This document shows positions 32,087 to 52,346 of a DNA stretch of 64,000 nucleotides, piece by piece; position 1 is the first letter of the stretch; every line of letters begins with the position of its first letter. This DNA is from Bacteroidota bacterium (GTDB lineage: Bacteria; Bacteroidota; Ignavibacteria; UBA10030; SZUA-254). The notes under the pieces are model-generated. The model saw nothing but the letters and a program-made list of their open reading frames with translations. It did not search any database and had not been told where the DNA came from. Location: positions 310,001 through 374,000 of the forward strand of contig DATDFQ010000056.1 in NCBI GenBank assembly GCA_036522515.1. The letters run 5' to 3'. A program made the translations under genes and the position numbers.

Positions 32087-32758
32087 ATCCGAATCCTGCT
32101 TGTCGAGGACGAGAAGAAGCTCGCCCGTTCCATAAAGCAGCAGCTCGAGCGCGCCGGAAACACCGTGGAAATTGCGGGAGATGGCGTTGCGGCTGAAGAG
32201 AGAGCCCGGAGAGGGGAGTTCCATCTCATTGTTCTCGATCTCAATCTCCCGAGGAAGTCCGGCCTCGATGTCCTTCGCGATCTCCGGGCTGATTCTTACA
32301 TGACGCCGGTTCTCATCCTCACGGCCGTGGATGGGGTGGAACACCGGATCGAAGGGTTGAAACTGGGAGCGGACGACTATCTCATCAAGCCCTTCGACTC
32401 AGGCGAACTCCAGGCCCGGATCGACGCCGTCGTGCGCCGCTCGGGCTCCTCGAAAACATCGATTCTGCAGGCTGCGGATCTGCTGATGGATGTCGTGAAG
32501 CGAACCGTGGAGCGGGCCGGGCAGAGGATATCGCTCAGCGACAAGGAGTTTGCATTGCTCGAATTCCTGTTGAGAAACAAGAATCAGATTCTGACACGCA
32601 AACGGCTCATCGAGCAGGTGTGGGGTTACCAGTTCGACACGGGAACCAACATCGTCGATGTGTATATCAGCTATTTGCGGCAGTCCGTCGACAAGGGATA
32701 CCCGAAGAAACTCATCCACACCATGCACGGTGAAGGGTTTATCCTTGTCGACGACTGA
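32087..32758 (+). CDS. OmpR/PhoB-type response regulator with an apparent ATC start
   Basis: 223 residues from 32087. Receiver domain (1-115): ILLVEDEKKLARS, phospho-acceptor Asp in LIVLDLNLPRKSGLDVL, Thr/Ser in LILTAVDG, Lys in YLIKPFDSGEL; winged-helix DNA-binding domain (about 125-220: LSDKEFALLEFLLRNKNQIL, VDVYISYLRQSVDKG, LIHTMHGEGFILV). The first conventional start in frame is GTG 32165, which would delete beta-1 and the acidic pocket (VEDE). The evident start is ATC at 32087 (family proteins begin MRILLVEDE), seven bases behind AGGGAG; an in-frame TAG at 32066-32068 rules out a longer form. It forms a two-component pair with the kinase gene that follows. Confidence 0.85.
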   Translation: MRILLVEDEKKLARSIKQQLERAGNTVEIAGDGVAAEERARRGEFHLIVLDLNLPRKSGLDVLRDLRADSYMTPVLILTAVDGVEHRIEGLKLGADDYLIKPFDSGELQARIDAVVRRSGSSKTSILQAADLLMDVVKRTVERAGQRISLSDKEFALLEFLLRNKNQILTRKRLIEQVWGYQFDTGTNIVDVYISYLRQSVDKGYPKKLIHTMHGEGFILVDD

Positions 32759-47637: not shown

Positions 47638-49611
47638 GTGATCGATCGCGTGAGCGCGAGTCCTTCAGGCGATCGTCTCGTGGCGCGCGCGTTGCCTGTG
47701 ATACTTGCCGGAGGGGGAGCCATGTGCGTCTATGCGGCATGGAACGCCTTCCGGGTGAACGGGGCGTTCGGTTTCCCTCTCGACGATCCCTGGATTCACC
47801 TGCAGTTCGCAAGGAACCTGCACGATTATGGGGTGTTCTCATACTATAAGAATGAGATGGCGACCTCGGGATCGACTTCCCCGCTTTATACCGCGCTGCT
47901 CGCGCTTGGCTTTTTCATCATCCCGAACGAATTCGCCCTGAGTTACACATTCGGGATCGTTTTCCTGCTCCTCTCCGCCTTTGTTCTCTTTAAACTCGCG
48001 CGGCTCCTTCTCGGGAGCCAGCTCGCGGCCGTCGGAGCGGCGCTCCTCCTCCTCTTCGAGCCCCGGTTGGAATGGGTTGCCCTTTCAGGAATGGAAACGA
48101 CGCTCTTCGTACTGGCGATCCTTTCTGCCTGGTACTTCTACGCTACCCGGAACAGGCTCGCCCTCGGCCTTTGCGCCGGACTGGCGATATGGGTCCGCCC
48201 GGATGCGGTCATTTTCCTGGCGGCGCTCTCCATTGATGTCCTCTACCGGCGATCCCTCTCCCGACCCGCGGCGTCCGGCAGGAAAACGGCGCCGGTTGCG
48301 CCACAAGGATCGGCCTGGCTCCTCCGGCCAGTCCTGATCGCGGCTCTCCTCGCGTGCGCCTACATCGCGTTCAATCTCTGGCTGTCCGGGTCGATCTTTC
48401 CGAACACCTATGCGGCGAAGTTGAAGAAGTACTCGGGGGGCACCGAACATTTTCTGGCCGAGGTATGGACATTCATAACCGCCGGGCACCTCGTCCTGTT
48501 TTCGCTCTTCATGGCCATCGGGACTCTCTCGGTCGTCCGGTCCGTTGCCGGGCGAAAGGAGGAGGGTCTTCTCCTCGCTCTCCTCTGGCCCGCAGGGATG
48601 ATTCTTGCCTACTGGAAGAACCTGCCCTACCTCTACCAGGAGGGAAGGTACGTGATGCCGATTCTCCCCTTCATCATACTCCTGGGCCTCAGGGGAGTGT
48701 CAACATCACTCCTGGTGGCCGGGAAGGCTGTCAGGAGCCTCACACGGCGGAGAGTCATGTCCCTCGCCACGGCGGGGCTCATCGCTCTTTTCTGGATACA
48801 GTTTGCCTCGGCGTCATGGGAGATGAAGGAGAGGTACGCGGACTCGTGCAGATACATCGGCGAACGGCAGGTGCGAACCGCGATGTGGATCCGCGAGCAT
48901 CTCCCCGAAACCGCATGTGTCGCGACCCACGATATCGGGGCCATAGGGTTCTATTCCGGCCGGAGGGTGGTCGATATGGTCGGCCTCGTCTCCCCCGAAA
49001 TGATCGACAATATCGGAAGCCTCGACAAACTGATGCGCTTCCTGATCCGCAGGAAGGTCACGCACCTTGCGGTGCTGCGGAACTGGTTTGAGGTGGTCAA
49101 CGAAAACCCGCTGTTCCAAACGGATGAACTCTCTCCGGAAATTATGGAGGTGTTTCCATTCGATCCCGCCCGCACACACTTCACCCCCGGAGTCGTGGGC
49201 GAGATGACCGGGAGCGCTGAATATTACCTCTCGAAAGGCGACCCGCGCAGCGCGCGGTCCATCCTCGAGCAATCGCTGAGAAGCGATCCCCGTTCTTCGA
49301 GGACGCATTATCTGCTGGGCCGGGCGTATCTCGAGCTGGGCGACCCGGAGAAAGCCGACTGGGAGATCAGGGAAGCCCTCCGGTTGCATCCCCGGTTTTG
49401 GGATGCGCGCTCCGCGAGCGCGGAGATCTCGGTGAAGCGAAACCGGCCGGAGCAAGCGGTCGCGATCCTCGAAGAATTACTCCGTGAGAACCCCCGCTAT
49501 GCCGCGGGTTACAGGATGCTCGCCGGAGTGTACGGTTCGGTGCTCGGCGATACACTCAAGTCGAGGCAATACCTCGATCAGTACGACAGTATGATGAAGG
49601 GGGCGAAGTGA
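47638..49611 (+). CDS. polytopic membrane protein, GT-C/PMT-like, with C-terminal TPR region
   Basis: 657 residues. About ten hydrophobic helices up to about residue 390, with features of GT-C transferases: an acidic pair in a first loop (FPLDDPWIHLQFARNL, about 46-61), then SGSTSPLYTALLAL, VALSGMETTLFVL and AIWVRPDAVIFL. A soluble extracytoplasmic domain follows (AMWIREHLPETACVATHDIG), then three or four TPR-like helices (about 525-650, LLGRAYLELGDPEKADWEIR). A lipid-linked sugar transferase is the best guess; donor and acceptor are unknown. GTG start 19 bp after tsaD; mltG overlaps its stop by 4 nt. Confidence 0.8.
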   Translation: MIDRVSASPSGDRLVARALPVILAGGGAMCVYAAWNAFRVNGAFGFPLDDPWIHLQFARNLHDYGVFSYYKNEMATSGSTSPLYTALLALGFFIIPNEFALSYTFGIVFLLLSAFVLFKLARLLLGSQLAAVGAALLLLFEPRLEWVALSGMETTLFVLAILSAWYFYATRNRLALGLCAGLAIWVRPDAVIFLAALSIDVLYRRSLSRPAASGRKTAPVAPQGSAWLLRPVLIAALLACAYIAFNLWLSGSIFPNTYAAKLKKYSGGTEHFLAEVWTFITAGHLVLFSLFMAIGTLSVVRSVAGRKEEGLLLALLWPAGMILAYWKNLPYLYQEGRYVMPILPFIILLGLRGVSTSLLVAGKAVRSLTRRRVMSLATAGLIALFWIQFASASWEMKERYADSCRYIGERQVRTAMWIREHLPETACVATHDIGAIGFYSGRRVVDMVGLVSPEMIDNIGSLDKLMRFLIRRKVTHLAVLRNWFEVVNENPLFQTDELSPEIMEVFPFDPARTHFTPGVVGEMTGSAEYYLSKGDPRSARSILEQSLRSDPRSSRTHYLLGRAYLELGDPEKADWEIREALRLHPRFWDARSASAEISVKRNRPEQAVAILEELLRENPRYAAGYRMLAGVYGSVLGDTLKSRQYLDQYDSMMKGAK

Positions 49612-50624
49612 CCAAGTGGATTCTCCGCGCCCTGGTTCTTCTCCTGGTCGGCGGGATCGTTCTCATCTATGAAATCCTCTGGGGGCCGAACTCGTTCGGG
49701 AGCGACCGGTTTGTCATCGTCTCCAAGGGGGAGAGCTTTGTTCAGATCCTCGACTCGTTCGACCGCGAAGGCATCATCCGGAGCAGGCTTCTCTTCGACG
49801 CGGCGGGCCGGTTGCTCGGCCTCACGACAAAAATGCAGATCGGAAAGTACCGGTTCAGGAGCGGGATGTCGAACACCGAGATGCTGGAGGATCTGCGTTT
49901 CGGAAAAACCATCGAACCGATCACGGTCACCATTCCCGAAGGGTTGAAATCGTCCCGCCAGGCCCGGATTTTTGCGCGGAGTCTGGGGATCGATTCCCTC
50001 CGGTTCATGACGCTTGTCTATGATTCGACGTTCGCCCACTCGCTCGGGGTTCTCTCGCCCTCCCTGGAAGGCTACCTGATGCCCGATACCTACAAGCTCT
50101 ACTGGCAGATGGACGAAGAAGAGATCATCAAGGACGAAGTCGCCCAGTTCTGGAGGTTCATGAACGACACGCTCCTGGCGCACGCCGATTCGAGCGGGAG
50201 GTCGCTCAATGACATCCTCGCCATGGCCTCGATCGTCGACGCCGAAACGAAAATCGATTCCGAGCGGGCAGTCGTCGCCGGGGTCTACTATAACCGCCTT
50301 GAAAAGAAGATGAGGCTCGAGGCGGATCCGACCATCCAGTTCATTCTGGAAGACGGGCCGCGCCGCCTGAAGTTCAGCGACCTGTACCGCGAATCGGCCT
50401 ACAACACGTACCGGCATACCGGCCTCACCCCCGGACCGATCAATAATCCGGGAAGGGCCTCGATCCGCGCGGCGCTCTACCCCGTCAGGCACAAGTTTTT
50501 ATTTTTCGTCGCCAACGGGATGGGGGGGCACACGTTCACCCGGAGCTACAACCAGCACCGCCGGGCCGCCCAGCGCTTCCGGAAGTTCCGCGAAGAGCAG
50601 CAGGTCCTGAAAGAGGAGGATTAG
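49608..50624 (+). CDS. mltG: endolytic murein transglycosylase MltG
   Basis: 338 residues: N-terminal membrane anchor (ILRALVLLLVGGIVLIYEIL), LysM-like/YceG domain, then the catalytic region with LEGYLMPDTYKLYW, MASIVDAETKIDSER (the Glu of AET aligns with the proposed catalytic Glu of E. coli MltG), EADPTIQFIL, SAYNTYRHTGLTPGPINNPG and FVANGMGGHTFT. Cleaves nascent peptidoglycan strands at the inner membrane. GTG start in a GTGA overlap with the preceding gene. Confidence 0.95.
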   Translation: MTKWILRALVLLLVGGIVLIYEILWGPNSFGSDRFVIVSKGESFVQILDSFDREGIIRSRLLFDAAGRLLGLTTKMQIGKYRFRSGMSNTEMLEDLRFGKTIEPITVTIPEGLKSSRQARIFARSLGIDSLRFMTLVYDSTFAHSLGVLSPSLEGYLMPDTYKLYWQMDEEEIIKDEVAQFWRFMNDTLLAHADSSGRSLNDILAMASIVDAETKIDSERAVVAGVYYNRLEKKMRLEADPTIQFILEDGPRRLKFSDLYRESAYNTYRHTGLTPGPINNPGRASIRAALYPVRHKFLFFVANGMGGHTFTRSYNQHRRAAQRFRKFREEQQVLKEED

Positions 50625-50627
50625 AAG

Positions 50628-52346
50628 ACGCCCGTCCGAACCGTTCCGTCGCCCGCCCAGGCGCTGCTGCATGCTCTTCTCTGCGGCATCATCCTGACGA
50701 CCTCATTCTTTTGCGCCGGCCAGGTCGCACCCTCGGGCGGCCCGCCCGATACCACCCCCCCGGTGATTGTAAGCTCCTACCCGTCGCACGGAGCGCTCGG
50801 TTACCGGGACAACCGGCTGAACCTTGTGTTCAACAAGTATGTGGATCACTCGAGCGTGGAAGGATCGCTTTTCATTTCGCCGTCGGTCGGCGAACTGAAC
50901 ATCGCGTGGAGCGGGACGGAAGTGGAAATCCGGTTCTCGGATTCCCTGCGGCCGAACACCACCTATATCCTCACGGTCGGCACCGACGCGGTCGACACCA
51001 GAAAGAACAGGATGGCGAGCGCGTTCGCTCTTCCCTTTTCGACCGGCGAACATCTCGACTCCGCGAGCGTGTCGGGGAAAGTGTTCGACACGGCTCCGGG
51101 CGGTATCATGATCTTCGCCTACATCCTGGGGGGCCAACGGGGCGATACGCTCAACCCCACCCATACGAAGCCGGATTATGAGACCCAGACGGGGAAGGAC
51201 GGGTCGTTTGTTCTGACGAACCTAGCCCTGGGGAGCTATCGGGTGATCGCGGTCCGCGACGAATACAGGAATCTCCTCTACGACCGCCAGACGGACGAGT
51301 TCGGGATGGCGACCTCGGATCTTCTGCTCGACAGCGCGAGGATGAAGATCGCGGGGATCCAATTCCGGATGACGAAGGAAGACACCACCCGCCCCTTTCT
51401 CTCAAGCGCGAGACCGCTCGACCGCTCGCACCTGCTTCTCCGCTTCAGCGAGGCGATGGACACCACAGGCGTCCGTGGGAGCTCGATTTCCATTCTCGAT
51501 ACCGCAACACACGAGAGTCTTCCGGTCCGGGATTTTTCGTTCGTGGACGGCTCGCTCCTTGCCGCCCAGGCTGTCACTGCGGACCAGGAGAGCAGCAAAA
51601 CCTACCGTGCGGCATTATCGGGGATGAAGGACTTGCATGGAAACCCCCTGAATTCCCTTGCGGGAACGGGAGTCTTCACGGGTTCGCCTCTCGCCGACAC
51701 GTCGAAGCCGGCGATAAAGCTGAGAGAGATTGAGGAGGGGGGAAGGAACGTTCCGGTGGAGGACAGCGTCGAAATCTTCTTCAGCGAGGCGATTCATCCC
51801 GCGGGCTTCGAGCACGCGTTCCAGTTGAGGGATACGTCAAACAAGCCTGTCGCCGGAAGCTTCAGGTGGTGGAGTTCGGCGCAGGTATCGTTCATCCCTG
51901 CGCGCGCTCTCAGCCTGTCAACGAGCTACCTCGTGAAAGTCGCGCTCGATTCGGTGAAGGATTTTTCAGGAAACCGGGCGGCGGATACCGTCTGGACGAG
52001 AAGGTTTCAGACTCTCGAGGAAAAAGCGGTGGGGAGCATCAAAGGGAAGGTGGTGGACGATTCCGCCGGAGCCGCGGGAACGATTTACATTGTCGCCTCC
52101 AATATCGCCTCCAGGGATGTGAAACCGATGAACGAAGCCCTCTCTTCTCCGGGCGCGTTCGTCTTTGAGCGGGTTCTCGAGGGGAAGTACACGATCGCGG
52201 GCTTCAGGGATTCGAACGGCGACGGAGGGTATTCGTTCGGGATGCCGTTTCCCTATCGTCCCTCGGAACGGTTCGACGTCTTTCCCGACACTCTGAAGGT
52301 AAGGGCACGATGGCCGCTGGAGGGGGTCGTCCTCCGCTTCCGCTAG
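50628..52346 (+). CDS. Ig-like-domain lipoprotein with an apparent ACG start
   Basis: 572 residues if read from ACG 50628. The N-terminus then gives a hydrophobic signal (ALLHALLCGIILTTSFF), a Cys at a lipobox-like site (SFFCAGQ) and the family's characteristic SGGPPDTTPPVIVSSYP. Next come Ig-like beta domains (about 45-150, LNLVFNKYVDHSSVEGSLFI; another near 245-340; another near 350-450) and a C-terminal carboxypeptidase-regulatory-like part. The first conventional start, GTG 50763, would remove the whole export signal. GAGGAGG at 50613-50619 lies 8 bases before the ACG, and no ATG, GTG or TTG occurs in frame between the mltG stop and 50763. Envelope lipoprotein of unknown role common in Bacteroidota. 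Confidence 0.85.
   Translation, partial: TPVRTVPSPAQALLHALLCGIILTTSFFCAGQVAPSGGPPDTTPPVIVSSYPSHGALGYRDNRLNLVFNKYVDHSSVEGSLFISPSVGELNIAWSGTEVEIRFSDSLRPNTTYILTVGTDAVDTRKNRMASAFALPFSTGEHLDSASVSGKVFDTAPGGIMIFAYILGGQRGDTLNPTHTKPDYETQTGKDGSFVLTNLALGSYRVIAVRDEYRNLLYDRQTDEFGMATSDLLLDSARMKIAGIQFRMTKEDTTRPFLSSARPLDRSHLLLRFSEAMDTTGVRGSSISILDTATHESLPVRDFSFVDGSLLAAQAVTADQESSKTYRAALSGMKDLHGNPLNSLAGTGVFTGSPLADTSKPAIKLREIEEGGRNVPVEDSVEIFFSEAIHPAGFEHAFQLRDTSNKPVAGSFRWWSSAQVSFIPARALSLSTSYLVKVALDSVKDFSGNRAADTVWTRRFQTLEEKAVGSIKGKVVDDSAGAAGTIYIVASNIASRDVKPMNEALSSPGAFVFERVLEGKYTIAGFRDSNGDGGYSFGMPFPYRPSERFDVFPDTLKVRARWPLEGVVLRFR

Follow-up and report, generated by a model that had tools for sequence, protein, structure and literature searches.

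The mltG-lipoprotein junction

We analysed a window of 64,000 nucleotides, which lies within a 399,729-base contig (C56) of a 3.50 Mb source genome (64 contigs, 99.89% complete). In this window, the gene for the lytic transglycosylase MltG is followed on the same strand by an open reading frame for an Ig-like lipoprotein. The stop codon of mltG shares its frame with the lipoprotein and with the first canonical start of the latter, GTG 50763. The features of the junction are as follows.

49608..50624, + strand: mltG (YceG-like lytic transglycosylase; PF02618, E 1.2e-77), stop TAG 50622-50624
50613..50619, + strand: GAGGAGG, a Shine-Dalgarno-like (SD) stretch that doubles as coding sequence for the K-E-E-D tail of MltG
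50625..50627, + strand: AAG, second near-cognate candidate start, SD spacing 5 to AGGAGG
50628..50630, + strand: ACG, best candidate start codon, with AGGAGG at spacing 8; faces the ATG of relative G010 in an ungapped alignment
50628..50714, + strand: predicted signal peptide and lipid Cys (codon TGC 50712-50714)
50628..52346, + strand: Big_5 Ig-like lipoprotein ORF (Pfam Big_5), 572 codons plus stop
50643..50651, + strand: GTTCCG-TCG; TCG 50649 matches the ATG, GTG or CTG that follows GTTCC in several relatives
50763..50765, + strand: GTG, first canonical start of the lipoprotein frame, 17 codons beyond the lipid Cys

The Big_5 domain scores 124.7 bits against a Pfam cut-off of 23.6, and the predicted lipid Cys follows a hydrophobic stretch, as in a lipoprotein with Ig-like domains. 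Read directly, the sequence between TAG 50622 and GTG 50763 contains no ATG, GTG or TTG in the lipoprotein frame. The frame ahead of this GTG translates as TPVRTVPSPAQALLHALLCGIILTTSFFC followed by AGQ or, read from AAG 50625, as K-T-PVRTVPSPAQALLHALLCGIILTTSFFC followed by AGQVAPSGGPPD. The first-pass annotation had placed the signal peptide and the lipid Cys in frame upstream of GTG 50763, in a leader lacking any of the three usual start codons, and both the reading of the frame and the comparison with relatives (below) bear it out; its ACG 50628 does lie 8 bases after GAGGAGG, at 50613-50619. No ATG, GTG or TTG can therefore keep the conserved N-terminus, and near-cognate codons are found correctly spaced from the SD (8 for ACG, 5 for AAG). 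As in pairs of genes that undergo termination-reinitiation, TAG 50622-50624 precedes ACG 50628 by a few nucleotides on the same strand. A search of the window against Rfam gave no match at gathering scores, and RNA structure around the lipoprotein start was unremarkable.

The ribosome-binding site ahead of ACG had been described as strong. ACG is the best candidate in a leader with no canonical start, but GAGGAGG consists of the E-E codons of MltG, whose gene ends in AAA GAG GAG GAT TAG (KEED and stop), and AAG 50625 is equally near-cognate. Since GAGGAGG is coding sequence, the SD could be a coincidence: an SD of 6 nt occurs within the last 15 nt plus stop in 13 of the 312 genes that are closely followed by another. 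Near-cognate codons make up 15% of all codons, and 0.58% of in-gene codons are near-cognate and preceded, at spacing 4-9, by an SD of 5 nt or more. At these rates a single coincidence of SD and near-cognate codon is unremarkable, and the weight of the case rests on the missing canonical start and on its recurrence in other genes.

Conservation of the lipoprotein N-terminus

A scan of genome contigs found 109 relatives, of which the best 80 were kept; one was left out of the start survey because its N-terminus is absent. From the 79 loci examined, two without a recognisable lipobox and one cut by a contig end were dropped, leaving 76 complete. The genomes that bear the gene are metagenome-assembled and carry the titles Ignavibacteria, Ignavibacteriae, Ignavibacteriales, Bacteroidetes, Bacteroidota and similar. 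An ATG, GTG or TTG is present 14-45 codons before the lipobox Cys in 75 of the 76 relatives; a canonical start before the Cys is therefore the rule, and the comparison proposed by the first-pass annotation sets the window apart from it. The sole exception (L233, JAPUKJ010000280.1) reads GTTCCA-CTG where L235 has GTTCCG-ATG. The gene is absent from the one same-genus genome compared, which is 79% complete; the other relatives have canonical starts, apart from the CTG of L233.

In an alignment of the window with 16 relatives, Cys29-Ala-Gly at the lipobox is invariant (17/17) and the P-x-GGP that follows is common to all. Because these elements are conserved and 75 of 76 relatives start upstream of the Cys, a start downstream of it in the window is not credible.

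A second case in the window

The first-pass annotation had counted two such genes within 64 kb, leaving the other unnamed. We take it to be the following one, and the count holds.

32087..32758, + strand: OmpR-type response regulator, candidate start ATC, no SD of 5 nt

No canonical start is found in its frame before the conserved N-terminus. From ATC 32087 the frame reads IRILLVEDEKKLARS (IRILLVEDE...), a textbook response regulator N-terminus, and its alignments with relatives of solved structure begin at residue 1 or 2, so that ATC 32087 appears to be the best candidate start. The response regulator of the same-genus genome G001 (77% identical) has GTT at the position of this ATC and an ATG ten codons upstream, with the frame open in between; in the window such a start is out of reach, blocked by a TAG six codons ahead of ATC 32087.

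Genes without a usable canonical start

We then examined 1.02 Mb of the source genome for similar genes. A tally based on coding potential proved too noisy and was replaced by a homology screen and then by a strict leader rule, which demands a stretch free of ATG, GTG and TTG that begins at the in-frame stop and extends 10 codons or more beyond the coding onset. The strict rule matched 31 of 703 genes. Besides infC, a known exception that served as positive control, seven were judged true by eye, namely those in which the first canonical codon would delete conserved sequence or a signal peptide. Their best candidate starts are putatively ATC, ATC, CTG, CTG, CTG, ACG and ACG. In addition to the lipoprotein and the response regulator, they comprise:

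C56:185733, - strand: glycosyltransferase, ATC behind AGGAGG; start and upstream stop overlap as ATCGCTAA
C1:49492: DUF4032 protein, CTG behind AGGAGGT
C43:167960, - strand: SBBP-repeat protein, ACG behind GGAGG
C5:2226, - strand: AmiA-like amidase, CTG behind AAGGAG
C56:191865, - strand: hemG, CTG behind GGAGG; the weakest accepted case

A near-cognate codon served by an SD of 5 nt or more is present in the leaders of 6 of the 7 true cases and in 5 of 24 control leaders (Fisher p 0.004), a contrast that is suggestive only, because we divided the leaders into true and control by unblinded inspection, knowing their SDs. Three of the seven starts lie near an upstream stop: those of the lipoprotein, the glycosyltransferase and hemG, where the stop is that of a 12-codon frame from the end of hemE. 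At hemG (L170, C56 ~191865-191895, minus strand) the hemE stop shares nucleotides with an ATG in another frame, an arrangement also seen in G001; this ATG opens the 12-codon frame, whose TGA and the CTG that follows GGAGGAG overlap as CTGA. The locus may thus carry an indel, or ribosomes may re-initiate where CTG and TGA overlap.

The homology screen flagged 185 of 446 source-genome ORFs in its first pass, many of them shadow frames, and 42 of 212 after removal of overlaps; 16 were then kept and four accepted by eye (lipoprotein, hemG, glycosyltransferase and response regulator). The other flagged leaders belonged to the frame of the preceding gene or to a spurious frame, or had a workable canonical start. 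Likewise, dnaB on C5 (with GTG and ATG) and queE and truA on C56 (with usable starts) are not cases.

The strict rule matched 7 of 303 genes in the relative G003, where infC (ATC) and hpnC (ATT behind AAGGAG) look true. The latter gene (squalene synthase, TIGR03464; L122:16097, G003 C12, minus strand) shows no canonical start before its domain, and its ATT stands at spacing 7 from AAGGAG. The homology screen of G003, G011 and G006 (170, 87 and 67 genes) gave, on our reading, none besides infC, and its rates are biased because contigs were partly picked for orthologues of the source-genome cases. A G001 RND gene with ATC or ATT where the source genome has TTG was not counted, because the G001 assembly has errors. 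The genome-wide tally suggested by the first-pass annotation thus yields 7 of 703 genes in 1.02 Mb, but no significant excess over G003 (1/303, infC apart; Fisher p 0.45).

The translation apparatus

The 3' end of 16S rRNA is GGATCACCTCCTTTC, with the anti-SD CCTCCTTT, an ordinary sequence by which we rejected an altered anti-SD. ARAGORN reads an ordinary set of 46 tRNAs, three of them with a CAT anticodon; one (L328) looks like the initiator, which we presume from its unpaired first base and the GGG/CCC anticodon stem. A second initiator, or one with a changed anticodon, was rejected on the basis of this set. Loss of IF3 was rejected as well, as all but one of 15 family genomes, the source genome among them, have the factor. 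The 437 leaders of ATG starts contain the SD-like AAGGA 54 times where 14.9 are expected, although an SD of 4 nt is missing from 423 of the 708 chosen starts. In the same family, infC starts at ATC, ATT or ATA behind AGGAG or AGGAGG in the 7 loci that were read out of 14, the remaining 7 having been missed by the search motif.

Sequence error and choice of the start codon

In the alternative that we consider the most serious, and still unlikely, ACG is a base error or a strain variant: one T>C at 50629 has replaced an ATG that is the true or prevailing allele. A single substitution separates ACG from ATG, and ATG occupies the corresponding position in the same-family relative G010. To bound the error we aligned proteins of relatives by tblastn to 64,071 conserved codons of the source genome. 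Seven internal stops were flagged and all were rejected as real nonsense, since on our reading each falls at the edge of a gene or in a shadow frame. If there is indeed no real nonsense in these codons, substitution error is below 3.7e-4 per base; at that rate no more than 0.6 starts would be lost in 709 genes, whereas we see seven. Random base error is therefore disfavoured as the source of all seven cases, and the bound argues that most of them are real, without vouching for any single one. An indel-ridden genome was also rejected: no frameshift is backed by more than one relative, and three are possible from G001 alone. In G001 itself, an in-frame stop within a highly conserved stretch (L220:239, contig C200) is probably an assembly error.

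A little less probable still is that another codon of the leader is used, whether AAG 50625, GTT 50643, CTG 50664 or 50667, or TCG 50649. AAG has AGGAGG at spacing 5, and in relatives the start frequently lies 20-21 codons ahead of the Cys, a distance at which CCC and TCG stand in the window. The SD, however, serves only AAG and ACG, and the CTG starts leave no charged residue ahead of the hydrophobic stretch. Two anchors bear on the position. When the window and G010 (50% identity) are lined up without gaps, starting at the Cys, ACG 50628 and the ATG of G010 coincide exactly, and 11 of 31 residues are identical. By the other anchor, GTTCC, the ATG, GTG or CTG start of several relatives falls on TCG 50649. 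GTTCC occurs within 110 nt before the Cys in 28 of 77 sequences, with about 10 expected from a background of 0.13 per 110 nt in the loci. It adjoins the lipoprotein start codon in many Ignavibacteria (50643-50651 in the window; L227, L229, L233, L235, L238, L253, L269), frequently as ...AAAGGTTCC-N-ATG or ATG-GTTCC. As a genome-wide start motif GTTCC was rejected, being seen 11 times upstream of 437 ATGs where 17.5 are expected.

The two anchors differ by seven codons in a fast-changing segment, and we therefore make no claim that ACG 50628 was ancestrally ATG. The first-pass annotation had called this the ideal position for a start: the alignment with G010 agrees, but the GTTCC anchor would put the ancestral start at 50649. 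It had overlooked this landmark and the TCG to which it points, as well as AAG 50625 as a candidate and the coding of the MltG end by GAGGAGG. With its SD, ACG 50628 would be functionally a better candidate than TCG 50649, and we infer that it is the best single candidate start.

That the gene is untranslated, the loss of its start being a first step of decay, seems very improbable to us. A canonical start is absent and output from ACG may be negligible, but 572 codons plus stop are open throughout and identity to most family relatives is 45-53% over the full length. Least credible of all are readthrough of TAG into an MltG-lipoprotein fusion, for which the mltG stop is in the right frame but which would bury the signal peptide and the Cys and finds no TAG suppressor among the 46 tRNAs, and a start at GTG 50763 without signal peptide, an outcome that the first-pass annotation had named as contrary to its reading and that finds no support, since this GTG has no SD and its use would remove the lipid Cys and the greater part of the conserved stretch after it.

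A model for initiation at ACG

The lipoprotein gene, which lacks any usual start codon, most likely begins at low efficiency at ACG by means of the ribosome-binding site. We favour, with moderate confidence, a model in which the protein is made from ACG 50628 by the ordinary apparatus, in low amount and with translational coupling to the mltG stop. SD:anti-SD pairing would hold in place either a ribosome that has just reached TAG 50622 at the end of mltG or a 30S subunit that has bound at GAGGAGG, with ACG 50628 in its P site. The initiator fMet-tRNA (CAU) would pair with ACG at codon positions 1 and 3, two of three pairs, and the protein would therefore start with formyl-Met (MPVRTVPSPAQ...). 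It would then be exported and lipidated at Cys29, and its output would be IF3-sensitive and well below that of an ATG. What we observe at the locus is a frame with no canonical start, a conserved Cys with its signal peptide, an SD and its spacing, the distance to the stop, and an ordinary tRNA set, IF3 and anti-SD; the preference for ACG over neighbouring codons, the coupling to mltG and the low output are what we infer.

Tentatively, and as a possibility rather than a probability, near-cognate starts (ATC, ATT, ACG and CTG) may form a standing class in this Ignavibacteria family, serving ~0.3-1% of the genes and being SD-dependent, low in output and partly stop-coupled. A literature search confined to one paper collection found no report of near-cognate starts in Ignavibacteria. 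Gene callers usually admit only ATG, GTG and TTG, and for this reason such genes would be truncated or stripped of signal peptides in databases. If ~1% of the genes of the lineage start at near-cognates, their expression levels, like their signal peptides and the starts of their domains, are being misread, and the lineage would be a natural system for studying what IF3, the strength of the SD and the coupling of stop to start contribute to the persistence of weak starts.

Comparison with known systems

Near-cognate starts preceded by a strong SD are already known, from infC, pcnB and ccpN. The gene for IF3, infC, starts at AUU, AUC or AUA, and E. coli pcnB at AUU. The lipoprotein resembles them in having a near-cognate codon behind an SD, read by an ordinary initiator tRNA, and ATC, ATT and ATA starts of infC occur in the same family. 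The infC and pcnB starts are, however, conserved and regulatory, and the ACG differs from them in that the codon mismatch is at position 2 and not 3.

In Staphylococcus aureus, cvfC1 (AUU) and ccpN (AUA) have conserved weak starts that are rescued by a long SD, and weak starts with a strong SD yield ~10-30% of the output of AUG (PMC13009471). The lipoprotein shares with cvfC1 and ccpN the combination of weak start and long SD, but those starts were mapped by ribosome profiling and are conserved between species, whereas that of the lipoprotein is predicted from sequence; ACG is not among the codons named for S. aureus starts in the part of the report available to us (PMC13009471). Termination-reinitiation at such distances, with roles for SD and IF3, is documented (PMC6728339, PMC2268962). 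As in the 'close10' class of gene pairs, the mltG stop lies 3 nt before the next start and the SD is inside the first gene; the pairs described there use canonical starts, while coupling with an ACG would be particular to our reading (PMC6728339).

If upheld, the point of interest is the frequency of such starts. Among 61,358 ancestral AUG starts, three switched to CUG or AUU, and the portion of that study available to us names none to ACG or AUC (PMC5622118); near-cognate starts in ~0.3-1% of genes, if true, would be far above that rate.
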